From Candidatus Coprosoma intestinipullorum (lineage in GTDB: Bacteria > Bacillota_I > Bacilli_A > RF39 > UBA660), in contig DVFV01000123.1 in NCBI GenBank assembly GCA_018713045.1, forward strand, positions 1 through 49,713: DNA of 49,713 nucleotides, written 5' to 3'. Within the stretch, counting starts at the first letter, position 1, and each line of letters begins with the position of its first letter. Under the pieces are notes generated by a model that was given only the letters and a program-made list of their open reading frames with translations, made no database searches and was not told where the DNA came from. The position numbers and the translations under genes were made by a program. Below are positions 4,371 through 13,586 of this stretch, one piece after another.

Positions 4371-4403
4371 AAAGAAGCCTCTTTTTAATTATGAGACTTC
4401 TTT
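4371..4403 (-). terminator. Rho-independent terminator of the histidine kinase gene
   Basis: AAGAAG.CTC...GAG.CTTCTT stem with flanking T run on the minus strand. Confidence 0.55.
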
Positions 4404-5839
4404 TTGGTTTGCTCGATTTTTTTGATTTCGAAGTAGAATGTCGATCCTTTTTTACTTGTTTTAACACCATAATTACTGCCGTGACTTTGAAGTATTTGTT
4501 TAACAATCGACAATCCTAATCCTGTTCCATAACTGTTTCGTTTGTGTTTTTTATCACTATGATAGTAACGGTCCCAGATATGGGCAAGTTCTTCTTTTTT
4601 AATACCTTTTCCGGTATCGATGATTTCAATTAAGTATGTATCTTTTTGTTCTTTGATGTTGATGGTAACTGTTTTATCTTCGCCGGTATAATTGATTGCA
4701 TTGTTAACTAGGTTATAAATTACTTGATAGATTCGTTTATAATCTGCTTCGACGATGACTTTATCTGGATGATTGAAGACGAAGTTGTATTGTTCTTTAA
4801 CGGTTAATATGTTAAATTTATCGATTATTTGATAGATTAAATCATTCAAATCTATTTTTTCGATTTTTAACGGTGTCGCTTTAGCTTGAAGGGCTGATAA
4901 ATCTAAGATGTCATTAACTAGTAAGGTTAAACGGTCGGTTTCTTCGATGATGGTATTTAAGTTTTCTTCGCGTTTTTCTTTTTTATCATAGTTAATGTCT
5001 CTAATTAATTCGGCATAAGCTTTGATCATCGTAAGCGGTGTTTTAAGATCATGACCGACATTAGCCATCAGGTCTCTTTGAAGTTTTTCGGTTTTGGATA
5101 GTTCTTCTTTGGCGTAGTTTAATGAATCTGTCAGTTCGTTTATTTCATATATATTTGAGTTAGTTGTGAAATCAGTACTAAAGTTTCGATCTGCAAGTTT
5201 ACGGGCATTTTCACTTATTTGAATAATTGGTTTAGAGATACTTTTAGATATGAAATATCCAACGATTAGTGACAGAATCAAAACTCCGATGGTTGTATAA
5301 ATAAACTGACTAGATAGAATTTGAATGGTCGAATCTAGGGGTTCGATGGATGCATTAATGAAGGCATATGTTGTACTGTCTAATTTTAAAGCATAAATCA
5401 AGGTTTCTTTTTTAAAGTCTTGGTTAATTAAGCTGTAGTGCTGTTCTTCAAGGCCACTATTTAAAAAATCTTTTTTTACTTTGAAGTTTTTGTTACCAAA
5501 TTCCATGCATCCTTGATTATAAATGCTGGAAATGTATGAACTATTTGCTCCATATATTTCGATGCAAATATCACGACTTTTGGCAATTTCTTCGATGGCT
5601 GAGAGACTTAAGTAATTGTTGTCTTCTTTTAATTCACTGGCTGCTTGATTTAAGTCGTTTGTTTTACGATATTTATAATAGGTTCCTAAAAATAGCGTTT
5701 GAAATAGCCATAATGATAAAAGAATTATAATAGAAAAAGATATTAAAAATAGCCAAATTTTGGTGGTTAAGCCATTTGGTTTGGTATTTTTAATGTTTGA
5801 TAGGATTTTTTTGAATCCATTTTTAATCTTTTGGAACAA
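4385..5839 (-). CDS. Sensor histidine kinase (two TM segments, HAMP, HisKA, HATPase_c)
   Basis: 484 aa; NVGHDLKTPLTMIKAYAELIRD H-box, NLVNNAINYTG, DTGKGIKKEEL, GTGLGLSIVKQIL. Confidence 0.92.
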   Translation of the reverse strand: MFQKIKNGFKKILSNIKNTKPNGLTTKIWLFLISFSIIILLSLWLFQTLFLGTYYKYRKTNDLNQAASELKEDNNYLSLSAIEEIAKSRDICIEIYGANSSYISSIYNQGCMEFGNKNFKVKKDFLNSGLEEQHYSLINQDFKKETLIYALKLDSTTYAFINASIEPLDSTIQILSSQFIYTTIGVLILSLIVGYFISKSISKPIIQISENARKLADRNFSTDFTTNSNIYEINELTDSLNYAKEELSKTEKLQRDLMANVGHDLKTPLTMIKAYAELIRDINYDKKEKREENLNTIIEETDRLTLLVNDILDLSALQAKATPLKIEKIDLNDLIYQIIDKFNILTVKEQYNFVFNHPDKVIVEADYKRIYQVIYNLVNNAINYTGEDKTVTINIKEQKDTYLIEIIDTGKGIKKEELAHIWDRYYHSDKKHKRNSYGTGLGLSIVKQILQSHGSNYGVKTSKKGSTFYFEIKKIEQTKKKSHN

Positions 5840-6488
5840 ATTTATAACCTACTCCTCTAACTGTGATTATTAAATCACGATATTTACCAAGGCTATTTCG
5901 AAGCATTTTAACGTGAGTATCAATGGTTCGATCATCACCGTAAAAGTCATATCCCCAGATTTTATTTAGCAGTTGGTTACGTGATAGAGCGATGTTTTGG
6001 TTCTCAATCATATAGACTAAAAGTTCGTATTCTTTTAGGGTTAGTTTTATTTCTTCGTCGTCAATAGTTACGGCGTGAGCTTTAAAGTCAACTTTTAAAT
6101 CGTGATATTGATATATATCTTCAGGGGTATTTTTAGTTCTTTTGAGAATGGCTTTGATACGGGCGATTAATTCTTTTGGACTAAATGGTTTGGTTAAATA
6201 ATCGTCTGTTCCAAGGTCGAAACCTCTTAATTTATCATATTCTTCGGTTCTAGCTGATAAGATAATGACTGGAATGTTTTTTTCTTTTTTTAATGTTTCG
6301 AGAAAAGACATGCCATCCATTTTGGGCATCATGATATCTAGGACAATTAAATCAATGTTTTGCTTGTTTATTATATCTAGAGCCTCTAGACCGTTTTCAG
6401 CTTCTAAACATTCAAAATTTTCTTCTTCAGCGTATGTTTTGATAACGTCTCTAATTAGCTTTTCATCATCGACAATTAATATTTTCAT
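5823..6488 (-). CDS. OmpR/PhoB-family response regulator
   Basis: 221 aa; DDEKLIRDV, LDIMMPKMDG, LTKPFSPKEL, winged-helix DRTIDTHVKMLRNSL; overlaps the kinase start by 17 bp. Confidence 0.93.
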   Translation of the reverse strand: MKILIVDDEKLIRDVIKTYAEEENFECLEAENGLEALDIINKQNIDLIVLDIMMPKMDGMSFLETLKKEKNIPVIILSARTEEYDKLRGFDLGTDDYLTKPFSPKELIARIKAILKRTKNTPEDIYQYHDLKVDFKAHAVTIDDEEIKLTLKEYELLVYMIENQNIALSRNQLLNKIWGYDFYGDDRTIDTHVKMLRNSLGKYRDLIITVRGVGYKFVPKD

Positions 6489-6702: not shown

Positions 6703-7851
6703 TTAAATAGATTGTTCTAAATATAACATGTGTTTTTCTAAACCTTTAAACATTATATTAACTGCTGCATTATAATCACGACTATGCTCTGTATGACATT
6801 CTGGACATTCCCACTTTCTTATACTTAAATCTTTTACTTCTCTATTTTGATAATTACACACACTGCATATCTGACTACTTGGATAATATCTGTCTATTTG
6901 TATTAATCTTTTATTATTCCAATTAGCTTTGTATTTAAGTACTCTAATTATCTCTGATATTGGGTTTTCGTTTAAGCCTTTGGCTATATAATGATTCTTT
7001 TGCATTCTTTTAACATCTAAATCTTCAGTTACTATAATGTCATTTTCATTTATCAATTTATTTGTTATATCATGTATCATATGCTTTCTTGCATTTCTTA
7101 TTTTTTGATATAATCTTTGTATTTTTAGTTTCATCTTATATCTATTTTTACTTCCTTTTTTACATCTAGCTAAGCCTCGTTGTAAACCCATCATTCTTTT
7201 TGTATTGAGTTTAATCTTATTTTCTATTTTCTCATTATAACTTGTTACTATTAAATCTTTTATTCCTAAATCTATGCCTATTATACTTGTTGGAATAAAT
7301 GACGGTCTTATTAACTCTTCTTCTATTAAAACACTTACATAATATTTACCAGCATCTTTTTTAATAACTGCACTTTTAACCTCACCAGGTATCACTTTTT
7401 TATTTCTATATCCTCTTATCTTTACTTCCTTTAATTTTGGTAGGGTTATTATTTTATTTTTTAAATCTAGTTTTATACTGTTATAATTATTTCCTTTATA
7501 ACTACTTTTAATATTATTAGTTTTATAGCTTTCATGTACTCCTTTTGCTTTAAATTTTGGGTATCCACTTCCGTCAAAGAAATTCTTATATGCATTATCT
7601 AAATTTAATAAGCTATTTCTAAGTGCACAGCTATCTACTTCTTTTAAAAATGGATATTCTTTAGAAAGTGATGGTATTAATTTTATTTGGTCATAAGCTG
7701 ATTTACTTTTTCCAGTTTCTTTATATTCTTTTATTTTATCATCTAAGAAATGATTATATATAAATCTAGAGCATCCAATAATTTTATTAATTAATTCTTC
7801 TTGTTTTTCATTTGGATACATTCTAAATACATAGCCTTTTAGTATTTCCAT
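6703..7851 (-). CDS. tnpB: TnpB RNA-guided endonuclease (IS200/IS605 OrfB family)
   Basis: RuvC motifs GIDLGIKDL, VTEDLDVKRM, HSRDYNAAVNI and zinc ribbon CSVC...CPEC; start refined to 7851 after AAGGTGGT. Confidence 0.93.
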   Translation of the reverse strand: MEILKGYVFRMYPNEKQEELINKIIGCSRFIYNHFLDDKIKEYKETGKSKSAYDQIKLIPSLSKEYPFLKEVDSCALRNSLLNLDNAYKNFFDGSGYPKFKAKGVHESYKTNNIKSSYKGNNYNSIKLDLKNKIITLPKLKEVKIRGYRNKKVIPGEVKSAVIKKDAGKYYVSVLIEEELIRPSFIPTSIIGIDLGIKDLIVTSYNEKIENKIKLNTKRMMGLQRGLARCKKGSKNRYKMKLKIQRLYQKIRNARKHMIHDITNKLINENDIIVTEDLDVKRMQKNHYIAKGLNENPISEIIRVLKYKANWNNKRLIQIDRYYPSSQICSVCNYQNREVKDLSIRKWECPECHTEHSRDYNAAVNIMFKGLEKHMLYLEQSI

Positions 7852-7879
7852 ATGACCACCTTCTATCATTGTTGCAACG

Positions 7880-7960: not shown

Positions 7961-7987
7961 AAAAATACTAGAAAACCTAGTATTTTT
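7961..7987 (-). terminator. Terminator of the 125-aa gene
   Basis: AAAAATACTAG-aaaac-CTAGTATTTTT, 11-bp perfect stem. Confidence 0.65.
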
Positions 7988-8363
7988 AAGCAGCTAAAGT
8001 AAGCGCTGGTTTGATTAATCTAACTTTAACTTTAGCATGATGGTCACCGATTTCTTTGACTGTTTTTTTGTTAGTTATTCTTCTAATTGGCGCATCTGGT
8101 TTAGAAACTTCGTATGGTTTCATCTTTTTAAATTGGTGTTTTAAGACACTTAAGTTTGGAACAGCAACTGTTACGGTAACTATTTCCGGGTTATATTTAT
8201 TGATAAAATCATTTAAGAATTTTAACTCTTCTTTATCTAAGTTTTCAATGTTAATTACATAACTATAGATTTTGTTTATGTAATTTTCGTCAGGAGTTTG
8301 AACACTTTTTAAGTAATTTTCTGTAGCTTTTTTAACGTTTTTTAATGTATCTAATATATTCAT
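7986..8363 (-). CDS. Hypothetical protein (125 aa)
   Basis: RBS AAGGAGG before ATG; own promoter; ends in a terminator. No family recognised. Confidence 0.75.
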   Translation of the reverse strand: MNILDTLKNVKKATENYLKSVQTPDENYINKIYSYVINIENLDKEELKFLNDFINKYNPEIVTVTVAVPNLSVLKHQFKKMKPYEVSKPDAPIRRITNKKTVKEIGDHHAKVKVRLIKPALTLAA

Positions 8364-8389: not shown

Positions 8390-8418
8390 ATTATAATATT
8401 AAAGTAAACTTTTGTCAA
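8390..8418 (-). promoter_or_regulatory. sigmaA promoter of the 125-aa gene
   Basis: Minus strand TTGACA-N17-TATAAT. Confidence 0.75.
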
Positions 8419-8433
8419 ATTTAGGTATTAAAG

Positions 8434-9339
8434 TTATTTTTGCTTGACAATTTGTTTTTTAGCTTCTTTGGCGAATTCTTTGGTTTCTTGTCTTTTATGA
8501 CTTTGGCGATATAGTTCAATTAGTTTGTTTATTAATTTGTGATAAAATATATGATCATTTGGATGAATAGCTACGTAATCTATTTTTAAAACGATGTTGA
8601 TTGCGTCTTTAATATCCATAGATTTTGTAAGTTCTAGAATTAGATTTTCTAAGCAGGCATTAAAATAATCTGTTTCCATATCTTTAGGATTTTGGTAGAA
8701 TTTTTCAATGAGACTAGATAATCTTACTAATTTTGGAGAATTAATAGCCACTTGCTGGAAATAGCGTTGATTTAAAATTTCGGTATATCCTTCATCTAAT
8801 CCGTTGCCAATTTCATATGAGTCTTTTTTGAATGTTCCATAAGTGTGAAAACCGTTTGTTTTGGCGTGCTGATTGTTAGAAGAAAGGTGCAAAAGGTCGT
8901 GGGTTAGGGTTTCAGGTAATTGGGTATAAATGGTTATTTTGTTTTTTGTTTGATCGTAAAATGACTGAAAAACACATTTCTTTTTCTTTTTGCTGTCATT
9001 TATATCTAGGGTTGCAAATTGAATGTTACTAACGAAATTACGAAGGTTTTCAGGTGATGTGTGTCTTGTAAGTTCACGGTAGAATTCATAGATTGCTTCA
9101 TTGCTTTGCTTTAATTTGTTTTCTACTCTTTTAAATATTTCCTGTTCTTCTTTATTTAAAACTGCATATTTTTCTTTAACAAAAAGCGTATTTTGATTTT
9201 CCTTTACGGCTTCATTTAAGGTCTCTTCATATTTTTTAAGAACTAGTTTTGTTTTCTTTCTGCAGGTGTGCTGATAATAGACTACTCCTCCAACAAATAC
9301 ATAGGCTAAAATGTCACCAGATATAAGCCATTCTTTCAT
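8434..9339 (-). CDS. Membrane-anchored metalloprotease-like protein, paralog 1 (HDLLH variant)
   Basis: N-terminal hydrophobic segment; HDLLHLSS-n-GLDEGYTEILNQRYF; DMETDYFNACLENL; aligns along its length with the next two ORFs. Confidence 0.7.
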   Translation of the reverse strand: MKEWLISGDILAYVFVGGVVYYQHTCRKKTKLVLKKYEETLNEAVKENQNTLFVKEKYAVLNKEEQEIFKRVENKLKQSNEAIYEFYRELTRHTSPENLRNFVSNIQFATLDINDSKKKKKCVFQSFYDQTKNKITIYTQLPETLTHDLLHLSSNNQHAKTNGFHTYGTFKKDSYEIGNGLDEGYTEILNQRYFQQVAINSPKLVRLSSLIEKFYQNPKDMETDYFNACLENLILELTKSMDIKDAINIVLKIDYVAIHPNDHIFYHKLINKLIELYRQSHKRQETKEFAKEAKKQIVKQK

Positions 9340-9374
9340 ATAATATTCCCCCTCTTATTTAAATTATGGGTTAT

Positions 9375-9402
9375 ATTATAATCTTTTTTGAGTTTTTGTC
9401 AA
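9375..9402 (-). promoter_or_regulatory. sigmaA promoter of paralog 1
   Basis: Minus strand TTGACA-N16-TATAAT. Confidence 0.65.
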
Positions 9403-9428
9403 ATCTACGCATTTATTTTAGTTTGGAT

Positions 9429-10349
9429 TTATTTTTGCTTTTGGGATTTATTATATAATTTTGTTATTTTTGAATATGTTTTTTTATAAAAATTTTGATC
9501 ATCTGGGTGCTCATCAATGTAATCTATATCTACGAGAATATCTACTGCTTCTTCAATTGTCATTTTTTGAGATAATTCGGAAATCAGGTTTATTAAACAG
9601 GCGTTAAAGTAGTCGGCTTCCATGTCTTTGGGATTATCATAGAAACGCTCTATCAATATACTCAAATTTTGTAGTTTTGGATATGCTTTTTCATTTCTTG
9701 TTTTAAAATAGCGATTACATAAAGTTTCAGTGTATCCTTCATTTAGACCGCGACCTATTGATATAAAAAGATGGTCATGTTCTAGGTTTAATTCGAAGCC
9801 GTTAAGTTTGTTTTTCCGGTCTGCTGAAGAGGTGTGAAATAATTCGTGATGTAGAGTGTCTTTATTATTTTGAGGATTATAAAAAATGTTTATTGTATTT
9901 TTGACGTTGTCGTAGTTACCAAGACAAAAATACATTGTTTCTTCTATTTTTTTGATGTTAGAATTATCGCTTTTGACGATTTTTAAGGTTTGAATATTAT
10001 TATAGAAATTTATCAAGTTATTTGGTGCGACTTTATTTTTTAGTGTTTGGTAAAATTCAATGACATCTTCATCTTCTATAGAATTTTCAAGGTTAGTTAT
10101 TTTTGCTATTTCATTAGCTGATAAAATGGCGTATTTTATTTTTGGTATATCTTTTAAAGAAGTAAAGATATCTGTAAAATCGTTTTTAAATTTTTGAAAT
10201 TTTATTTTATCGTTTTTACTGTTATATTTTTGAATCTTATATTTGTTTATTTTATATATGTTTTTTTTTGTAACATAATTTTCATATTGAAGCCCTATAT
10301 AGAGGGCTGCTGGCAACTGAAGCAAAAAAGTTATATTTTGATAGTCCAT
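9429..10349 (-). CDS. Membrane-anchored metalloprotease-like protein, paralog 2
   Basis: HELFHTSS-n-GLNEGYTETLCNRYF; DMEADYFNACLINL; N-terminal hydrophobic segment; 21 nt downstream of paralog 3. Confidence 0.72.
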   Translation of the reverse strand: MDYQNITFLLQLPAALYIGLQYENYVTKKNIYKINKYKIQKYNSKNDKIKFQKFKNDFTDIFTSLKDIPKIKYAILSANEIAKITNLENSIEDEDVIEFYQTLKNKVAPNNLINFYNNIQTLKIVKSDNSNIKKIEETMYFCLGNYDNVKNTINIFYNPQNNKDTLHHELFHTSSADRKNKLNGFELNLEHDHLFISIGRGLNEGYTETLCNRYFKTRNEKAYPKLQNLSILIERFYDNPKDMEADYFNACLINLISELSQKMTIEEAVDILVDIDYIDEHPDDQNFYKKTYSKITKLYNKSQKQK

Positions 10350-10370
10350 GTAATCCTCCCCCCATCTAAA

Positions 10371-11300
10371 TTATTTTAGCTTAGCTTTAACTTTAAATGT
10401 TTCTTTTTCACTTTTACTATGATTTTGTGAATATAAGCTATACATATTTTCTTTGATATTTTTAAAATATTTATTATCGTGCGGGTGGTAAAGAATGTAA
10501 TCGGTGTCAATAAGCATATTGATAGCTTCGTCATAAGAGATACTCTGGGTGAGATGTGCTAAAAGGTTATAAAAATTTGCATGGAAGAAATCGGCTTCCA
10601 TGTCTTTTTTATCTTCATAAAATAGTTCGATTAGTTCGGCTATTTTCTTTAATTTTGGATAAGAGAGATTTTTAGAATTAAAATATCGCCTATTAAGAAG
10701 TTCGGTGTATCCTTCGGTAATTCCTTTACCTATCAGAATTTTATTTTCTTCGTGGTCATAATATGAAAGCCCAACTTGTTGAGTGCAGGAATTAAATGAT
10801 GCCAAATGTAGAAGTTCGTGGTTGATGGCACTTTTTACAAAATTGTGATAAATTGTAATCTCATTTTTATTTGGATTATATTCAGCAAATTTAATTAAAC
10901 CGTTTTCTATCTCAATTATTCGTTTGGTCATAGTTAATTTTTCGTTACTTACGGTTACGGTCTGTGCATTTGTAAGGAAGTTAGTTAAATGATCTATTTT
11001 AATTTCTTGACTTAATTTTTGATAAAACTGATATATTTTTGGCTTTTCTTCTAATTTTTTAGACATATCTAATAATTTTTCGTTTTCTTCTTTATTTAGT
11101 ATGGCGTATTTTATTATAGGAAAGTTATATTTTTGGTAATCTTTATCTTTGGGAATGAATTGTTCTTTAATTTTTTGAAGTTCGTCTTTAGTTTCTTTTC
11201 TGCTTTTTATTTTAATTCTGCGATCAAGGATAAAGTTTGTTTCAACTAACATTCCTCCAACTAAAATTGGAAGCATAGATAATAGTTCGTTTTTATCCAT
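10371..11300 (-). CDS. Membrane-anchored metalloprotease-like protein, paralog 3
   Basis: HELLHLAS-n-GITEGYTELLNRRYF; DMEADFFHANFYNL; N-terminal hydrophobic segment. Confidence 0.72.
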   Translation of the reverse strand: MDKNELLSMLPILVGGMLVETNFILDRRIKIKSRKETKDELQKIKEQFIPKDKDYQKYNFPIIKYAILNKEENEKLLDMSKKLEEKPKIYQFYQKLSQEIKIDHLTNFLTNAQTVTVSNEKLTMTKRIIEIENGLIKFAEYNPNKNEITIYHNFVKSAINHELLHLASFNSCTQQVGLSYYDHEENKILIGKGITEGYTELLNRRYFNSKNLSYPKLKKIAELIELFYEDKKDMEADFFHANFYNLLAHLTQSISYDEAINMLIDTDYILYHPHDNKYFKNIKENMYSLYSQNHSKSEKETFKVKAKLK

Positions 11301-11359: not shown

Positions 11360-12187
11360 TTAATTGTTTATATGATGATGAATTTGTGGAGTTTTTTTGG
11401 TTATTTTAGCAAACGTATATCCACCCTCTTTACCATATTTTATTATATTTCTTAGGGCGCCTACTGTAGTCATTTTGGTTGGCGAGTCGTGCATTAAAAT
11501 GATATTGGTTCCACTTTTCAAGTGAGTGATGACATTATTATATATTTGATTTTCGTCGATGCATCCTGAGGCATCCATCGAATCGATATTCCAGTCATAG
11601 TAATAAAAGTCATTATGTGTTAATATTTCAGTGATTCTTGTCATGATGCCTGGTGAGTATTTTTTACTAATCGTGTTTGAAGAACCGCCTGGGAGCCTGA
11701 TTATTCTAGGTTTTTCGCCGATTATAGTAAATACTTTGTTTCTGATTTCGGTTAAATCGTTAAAATAGTTTTGCTCGCTTGAATATATGTAACTGTAGTT
11801 ATGGGTTGCGGTGTGAACGGCAACTGTATGATTTTCAGTATATTCTCTTTTGATGATATTTTGATATTTGTCTATTTGTTGGGAGGTGACAAAAAAGGTA
11901 GCCGGAACATTTTCTTCTTTTAATATATCTAATATTTCATGGGTTAAATAGCTTGGTCCATCGTCGAAGGTTAAGTAAATGGTTTTGTCTGAGATGATAG
12001 AAGGATTTATATTTTGAACTTTGATTTTAGATGCTTTTTTTAAGGTGATTTGTTTGGTAAAAGTTTTTTTCGGTATTTTTTTGAGTTGGCCATCTGGTTT
12101 TGTATATGACAAAGTACAGATTATTAATAAAAGAATATCCAGAACTATAATAATCCCGAATATTTTTATCTGTTTTTGATTTTCCAT
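11360..12187 (-). CDS. Polysaccharide deacetylase (NodB homology domain), membrane-anchored
   Basis: TFDDGPS, HTATHNY, RLPGGSSNT, DWNIDSMDA, LMHDS. Confidence 0.92.
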   Translation of the reverse strand: MENQKQIKIFGIIIVLDILLLIICTLSYTKPDGQLKKIPKKTFTKQITLKKASKIKVQNINPSIISDKTIYLTFDDGPSYLTHEILDILKEENVPATFFVTSQQIDKYQNIIKREYTENHTVAVHTATHNYSYIYSSEQNYFNDLTEIRNKVFTIIGEKPRIIRLPGGSSNTISKKYSPGIMTRITEILTHNDFYYYDWNIDSMDASGCIDENQIYNNVITHLKSGTNIILMHDSPTKMTTVGALRNIIKYGKEGGYTFAKITKKTPQIHHHINN

Positions 12188-12203
12188 TTACATCACTTCT
12201 TTT

Positions 12204-13586
12204 CTAGTTGTTTACTTTATGGGTAACCATAGGAGTATTCATGGTTATTTTTTCAAAGGTATAGCCGTTATTTTTACCGTATTTAATAATATTTCTTAAG
12301 GCATCGCGAGTATATGGTTTGATATCATGCATGAGAATAATATTGCTGCGGTTTTTACTTAAAGATTTTATAACGTTATTGTAGACACCGGACGAAGATG
12401 TGGTTTCCCCGGCATCGCCGGAACTTATATTCCAGTCATAATATTTAAAGCCCTTATTTACAACATCTTTAGTTAAATAAGTCATTATACCAGACGAGTA
12501 TTTTTTACTGACAGTGTTTGATGAGCCTCCAGGGAATCTGATGATTTTAGACTCATAACCGGTTAGGTTTTTAACTCTGTTTTGAATTTGGTAAAGGTCT
12601 TGATAGTAATTGTTAGATGAACTATAAACGCTTTGATAGTTATGAGAGTATGTGTGAAGCCCAACGGTATGGCCTTCGTTATATTCTCTTTGAATTAAAT
12701 AATCTGGCCCTTTGCCGGTTACGAAAAATGTTGCTTTGACGTTTTCTTCTTTTAGAATGTCTAGGATAACATTGGTTGTTCCTTCGTTTGGCCCATCGTC
12801 AAATGTTAAATAGATTACACCAGGTTTAGATGACTGAGCTGGCTTTTCGATAACTTTAACGGTTCTTTTTACAGAAGACACGTTGCCTGATAAATCGGTA
12901 ACTTCGTATGTTATAGTATAAGTCCCAATTTTATTTGTGTCAACGGTTCCACTGGTTTTTATGTTTAAATTATTATCACAATTATCAGTAACGGATGCCC
13001 CTTTGTCTTGGTAACTAGTTCCTTTATAAATTGTTTCGTTTTTACCATTTAAGGTGATCTGCGGCGGAGTTTTATCTTCTTTGATGATTTGTCTTGTTAT
13101 TTCGGTTTTATTTTTAGACGAGTCTACTACACTATAATAAATTAGACCGTTTTCGTTTTTTACTTTTACTTTTTTTGTTAAATCGCCGTCATAGTTGTCG
13201 GTGGCTTTATATCCTTCTTCTTGATATTCGGCATTGGGACAGATTGTTTTTGTCAGGTCACCGTTTAAGGTGATTATTGGTTTCTCATCATCGACTATTT
13301 TTACTTTTCTTGTCTTGGTAAAGGTCATAAAACCGATTTTAATTTGATAATCGATGTCGTATGTTCCAATTTTTTTATAATCGATGTGATTTTGTTTTTT
13401 AACTTTTGATGTATAGTCGTGTCCAAATCTAGTTACCTTGAATCCTGGTTCGCGATATTTTTGACCATATTCTAATTTTATATTGCCTTTTTTAAGATTA
13501 AATGTTGGTGGGTAGAACTGATATGTTGCTATAAGACTTAAAAAAAATATGAAAATTACAACAATTATAATGATTTTTTTACGCAT
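12204..13586 (-). CDS. Polysaccharide deacetylase with N-terminal DUF5011/Ig-like repeats
   Basis: TFDDGPN, HTYSHNY, RFPGGSSNT, LMHDI; repeats such as ITLNGKNETIYKGTSYQDKGASVTDNCD...GTYTITYEVTDLSGN. Confidence 0.92.
   Translation of the reverse strand: MRKKIIIIVVIFIFFLSLIATYQFYPPTFNLKKGNIKLEYGQKYREPGFKVTRFGHDYTSKVKKQNHIDYKKIGTYDIDYQIKIGFMTFTKTRKVKIVDDEKPIITLNGDLTKTICPNAEYQEEGYKATDNYDGDLTKKVKVKNENGLIYYSVVDSSKNKTEITRQIIKEDKTPPQITLNGKNETIYKGTSYQDKGASVTDNCDNNLNIKTSGTVDTNKIGTYTITYEVTDLSGNVSSVKRTVKVIEKPAQSSKPGVIYLTFDDGPNEGTTNVILDILKEENVKATFFVTGKGPDYLIQREYNEGHTVGLHTYSHNYQSVYSSSNNYYQDLYQIQNRVKNLTGYESKIIRFPGGSSNTVSKKYSSGIMTYLTKDVVNKGFKYYDWNISSGDAGETTSSSGVYNNVIKSLSKNRSNIILMHDIKPYTRDALRNIIKYGKNNGYTFEKITMNTPMVTHKVNN

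Follow-up and report, generated by a model that had tools for sequence, protein, structure and literature searches.

Three paralogous genes in tandem

The window, i.e., the whole stretch of 49,713 nucleotides of Candidatus Coprosoma intestinipullorum analysed here, encodes three consecutive metalloprotease-like proteins, which we call copies A, B and C.

10371..11300, minus strand: copy A, 309 aa, HELLH...TEGYTE
9429..10349, minus strand: copy B, 306 aa, HELFH...NEGYTE
8434..9339, minus strand: copy C, 301 aa, HDLLH...DEGYTE, with Asp in place of the catalytic Glu

An earlier sequence-only reading had described three minus-strand open reading frames of 301, 306 and 309 aa with shared motifs; they are present at these positions, and full-length alignment gives identities of 36-38%. 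They have in common HE/HD-L-L/F-H, EGYTE, RYF, DMExDxFxA and NL, and EGYTE follows HExxH at a distance of 30 residues in copy A and 31 in copies B and C. Copies A and B are close together, as had been noted, with a gap of 21 nt. The N-terminal hydrophobic segment that the same reading attributed to all three is clear in copy A (mean Kyte-Doolittle 1.71) and copy C (1.78) and weaker in copy B (1.30). Across the family, a strict hydrophobicity cut-off is passed by only 39 of 65 members, and most of the members that have a hydrophobic N-terminus carry positive charge after it. In the three copies, the stretch after the segment is Lys/Arg-rich, which predicts an N-out orientation, with the catalytic domain in.

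A motif pair resembling that of gluzincins

The motifs are conserved far beyond the window. In a 48-sequence alignment of divergent homologs (mean column identity 22%), no variation is seen in the two His of HExxH, in one Gly or in the leading Glu of EGYTE, which bears out the earlier description of a gluzincin-like arrangement made of HExxH and a downstream EGYTE glutamate. More than 90% of members retain the HExxH Glu in each of the two large alignments. Of the 65 members of at least 230 aa, a motif scan assigned HE..H to 57 and HD..H to 3; the second motif lies 14-52 residues downstream of HExxH and reads (N/D/T)EGYT(E/Q/D) in nearly all of them. It thus agrees with E-x3-D/E, the glutamate-helix signature of gluzincins.

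Compared with the gluzincins (clan MA(E), thermolysin type), the likeness lies in the HExxH motif and in a later Glu that is set in an E-x3-(E/D) context, NEGYTE here being the counterpart of NExxSD in thermolysin. Copies A and B carry the HExxH of the clan and copy C an altered form of it (HDLLH); the EGYTE Glu stands where gluzincins have their third ligand and would likewise bind zinc. The family differs from gluzincins in its short motif spacing, in its predicted N-terminal membrane anchor and in having no sequence match to them above threshold. A zincin fold is putative, the structure models having a pLDDT of about 47.

Remote similarity to zincin families

The window proteins gave no match above curated or usual E-value cut-offs in Pfam, NCBIfam or PHROGs, and a sequence search of the PDB returned nothing convincing, only coiled-coil and repeat noise. 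The earlier statement that no characterised family could be named therefore stands. Below the thresholds, individual members or the family consensus matched PF18818, DUF5700, SprT-like, M13, Tox-MPTase4, DUF6782 and M91. The best score of the consensus against SprT-like PF10263 was 14.7 bits (E 0.027), short of the gathering score of 25.6 bits. For PF18818, a divergent homolog reached 14.1 bits, short of the 27.5 bits needed, and the best E-value among 35 members was 0.0026. Single queries gave sub-threshold matches to the putative metallopeptidase DUF5700 (E 0.0029) and, over the HExxH region, to DUF6782 (E 0.17, far under its curated cut-off).

In profile-profile comparison with hhalign, the family core aligned with SprT/YgjP at P 2.2e-4 and with MPTase-PolyVal at P 2.2e-3, both alignments falling in one register, a strand-turn-strand followed by the HExxH helix, while eight unrelated neighbour families used as controls gave P 0.037-0.59. 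The scores of 32.1 (SprT/YgjP) and 26.5 (MPTase-PolyVal) compare with column-shuffled maxima of 14.2 and 17.6, and reversed controls also score far below the real alignments. Masking HExxH removes most of the profile score, and the same register still ranks top. The match to zincin families supports kinship with them and falls short of proof. Beyond the shared register, each family has its own features: most SprT/YgjP proteins have NHS..F after HExxH and lack EGYTE, whereas MPTase-PolyVal has a downstream EELIAE that is also E-x3-E but resembles the family only in the HExxH region and remains below the Pfam cut-off. Two AlphaFold runs on shallow alignments (9 and 11 sequences) gave pLDDT values of 47.2 and 46.9; in these low-confidence models, HExxH lies within a helix and the following helix begins at EGYTE, and Foldseek searches with both models returned noise and no significant match.

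The low confidence of the structure models leaves some room for proteins that are not proteases at all, in which HExxH and EGYTE would hold a structural metal or serve another use, as in a membrane-attached scaffold or a pseudoenzyme. The retention of the HD variant under purifying selection fits such a function, as do 177-aa homologs that match the family profile and lack HExxH. A purely structural metal site would not require the Glu of HExxH, though, and its conservation across the family makes this reading unlikely, if still one to be taken seriously.

A chromosomal family restricted to one lineage

The family was found in 47 of 149 relatives and, across the order, in 110 of 289 genomes, i.e., in 45 of 104 genera. 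Searches of class and phylum samples gave no family match outside a single taxonomic family (f1), in line with the earlier view of a lineage-specific family, and no confirmed relative was found among viral contigs, phage records and plasmid records. Given these two results, the family is chromosomal and lineage-restricted. The second of them also counts against a phage-derived, plasmid-borne or inter-bacterial toxin-type metallopeptidase, an origin hinted at by weak resemblances to metallopeptidase domains of polyvalent proteins and toxins. Such an origin is barely credible, since the genes are inherited vertically in stable chromosomal synteny across the genus and no secretion signature or pairing with an immunity gene was seen.

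Family members at other sites have different neighbour genes. The window genome itself has a fourth, distant paralog on another contig (C116; locus L008, 1318-2406; 362 aa, HEFLH...NEGYTE), which has yabP/yabQ/divIC on one side and spoVG/yabG on the other. Elsewhere, a family member of another genome adjoins spoVAE, and a second genome has the same gene order. These contexts, together with the spoIVA gene of the window genome, raise the question of whether family members serve spore formation. We find this quite improbable. No sporulation gene was recognised beside the window locus, where the promoter-like sites are of sigma-A type, and the presence of the family is independent of spoIVA: spoIVA occurs in 260 of the 289 genomes of the order, and most of the genomes with spoIVA lack the family; among 20 listed spoIVA-negative genomes the family is present in 7, compared with 110/289 overall.

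Local expansion and selection on the copies

At most of the genus loci examined, there is a single metalloprotease-like gene at this site. Three copies are found in the window species and in L010, two plus a frameshifted relic of copy A in L011, and one in L012. The copy expansion is thus local to this subgroup, and the proposed expansion by local duplication is supported by the contrast between one copy at the same site in most species of the genus and three here. In the phylogenetic tree, each window copy pairs with its L010 and L011 counterparts, and all copies form one group with L012 (support 94/92). The single-copy L012 falls among the three copies in the free tree, with weak support, and the AU test does not reject a clade that unites the three copies and excludes L012 (p 0.204). 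Either a recent triplication or an older one followed by loss may account for this history.

The sequence-only reading had further proposed an undescribed system of three specialised versions, which is not supported: most species of the genus have a single copy at this site, copy A is a pseudogene in the close relative L011, and the copies have no established partner gene. The copy A ortholog in L011 (5489-6321) is frameshifted and has EAYTE in place of EGYTE.

Relative to the sister species L010, dN/dS is 0.26 for copy A, 0.34 for copy B and 0.11 for copy C, and identities are 84%, 82% and 96%, respectively. Such values, together with the invariant His, His and Glu in divergent homologs, show that the features shared by the three copies are not due to chance. 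Copy C evolves most slowly of the three, and its HD variant is present in all three species where copy C was found. Copy C may be catalytically impaired, judging from its altered motif. It is not a decaying gene, as follows from its slow evolution and from the perfect and conserved promoter-like site that precedes it.

Gene order and promoter-like sites

The genes around the three copies belong to an order that is widespread in the genus.

11360..13586, minus strand: pair of polysaccharide deacetylase genes, which stand on the opposite side of the copies in the conserved order
9375..9402, minus strand: copy C promoter-like site, perfect sigma-A-type TTGACA-N16-TATAAT, 12/12
8390..8418, minus strand: c5 promoter-like site, perfect sigma-A-type TTGACA-17-TATAAT, at nearly all loci examined
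7986..8363, minus strand: c5, 125 aa, fast-evolving, of no known family, adjoining the metalloprotease-like gene in most genus loci examined
4385..6488, minus strand: two-component system next in the conserved order, with a histidine kinase (4385-5839) and an OmpR-type response regulator (5823-6488)

In most loci examined, the order is two polysaccharide deacetylases, MarR, an ABC exporter pair, the metalloprotease-like gene, c5 (about 130 aa across the genus loci), the response regulator and the histidine kinase, with all genes in the same direction. The MarR/ABC genes are absent at this site in the window species, L010, L011 and L012. In the window, a TnpB/OrfB gene (IS605-type, 388 aa; 6703-7869, minus strand) stands between c5 and the response regulator; it looks inserted in this species, since c5 and the regulator are adjacent in L010 and at other loci.

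The promoter-like site of copy C lies 35 nt before the start and is kept in the related species L010 and L011. It agrees with the earlier suggestion that copy C has a promoter of its own. Sites of 12/12 occur in 0.3% of random stretches. At many of the loci examined, a near-perfect promoter-like site also precedes the metalloprotease-like gene. A single operon of this gene and c5 was considered and set aside; c5 has its own perfect promoter-like site nearly everywhere, and with separate sites the two are probably not one transcription unit. Given this site at nearly every locus, c5 is possibly a strongly expressed small protein.

The conserved order, kept in one direction from the deacetylases through MarR and the exporter genes to the kinase, could reflect a signalling module tied to the MarR-ABC exporter genes, in which the metalloprotease-like protein would be a regulatory protease that cleaves c5 or feeds the two-component system. 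The separate promoter-like sites of c5, and often of the metalloprotease-like gene too, speak against such a module. The window species has no MarR/ABC genes at the site, yet the protease gene was kept and multiplied there, and members elsewhere lie beside other genes. We regard this role as rather improbable. A further reading concerns the paralog set: copy C, which evolves most slowly and would be strongly expressed, might bind metal and either regulate the faster-evolving, active copies A and B or hold substrates for them, the set feeding the c5/two-component locus. This is a long shot.

A candidate family of membrane-bound metallopeptidases

We favour, with a probability of roughly 0.6, the reading that the proteins belong to an undescribed family of zinc metallopeptidases that are gluzincin-like and have one N-terminal membrane helix and a cytosolic catalytic domain each. 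By analogy with gluzincins, one zinc would be held by both HExxH His and by the leading Glu of (N/D/T)EGYT(E/Q/D), and the Glu of HExxH would activate the water; the second acidic/amide residue of EGYTE would orient a His, as in E-x3-D/E gluzincins. The membrane tether would restrict cleavage to membrane proteins or to regulators at the inner membrane face. The canonical residues are present in copies A and B, which are the candidates for proteolysis. Copy C keeps the putative metal ligands and has Asp for the catalytic Glu, so that it would likely be slow as an enzyme or act as a modulator that binds metal, and some division of labour between the copies may exist.

The analysis adds an unnamed, widespread family of probable membrane-bound metallopeptidases, predicted from sequence, in uncultured Bacilli, a group in which little is known of the cell surface and of regulation. 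So far, no known open question depends on the family; its HD variant, kept under purifying selection, offers a natural test of an active-site change among paralogs.

Short and long homologs

The profile-matching 177-aa homologs without HExxH are encoded in L088 (528-1061), L107 (3255-3788) and L108 (1154-1684). LNEGYTE is kept in those of L088 and L107, and the L088 protein has HALLG in place of HExxH. They are apparent pseudoenzymes, judging by these residues. In L107 and L108, an intact family member is found no more than about 6 kb from the short homolog. At the other extreme, L073 and L086 have a frame of 616 aa whose C-terminal half looks like a duplicate of the domain that lacks HExxH.
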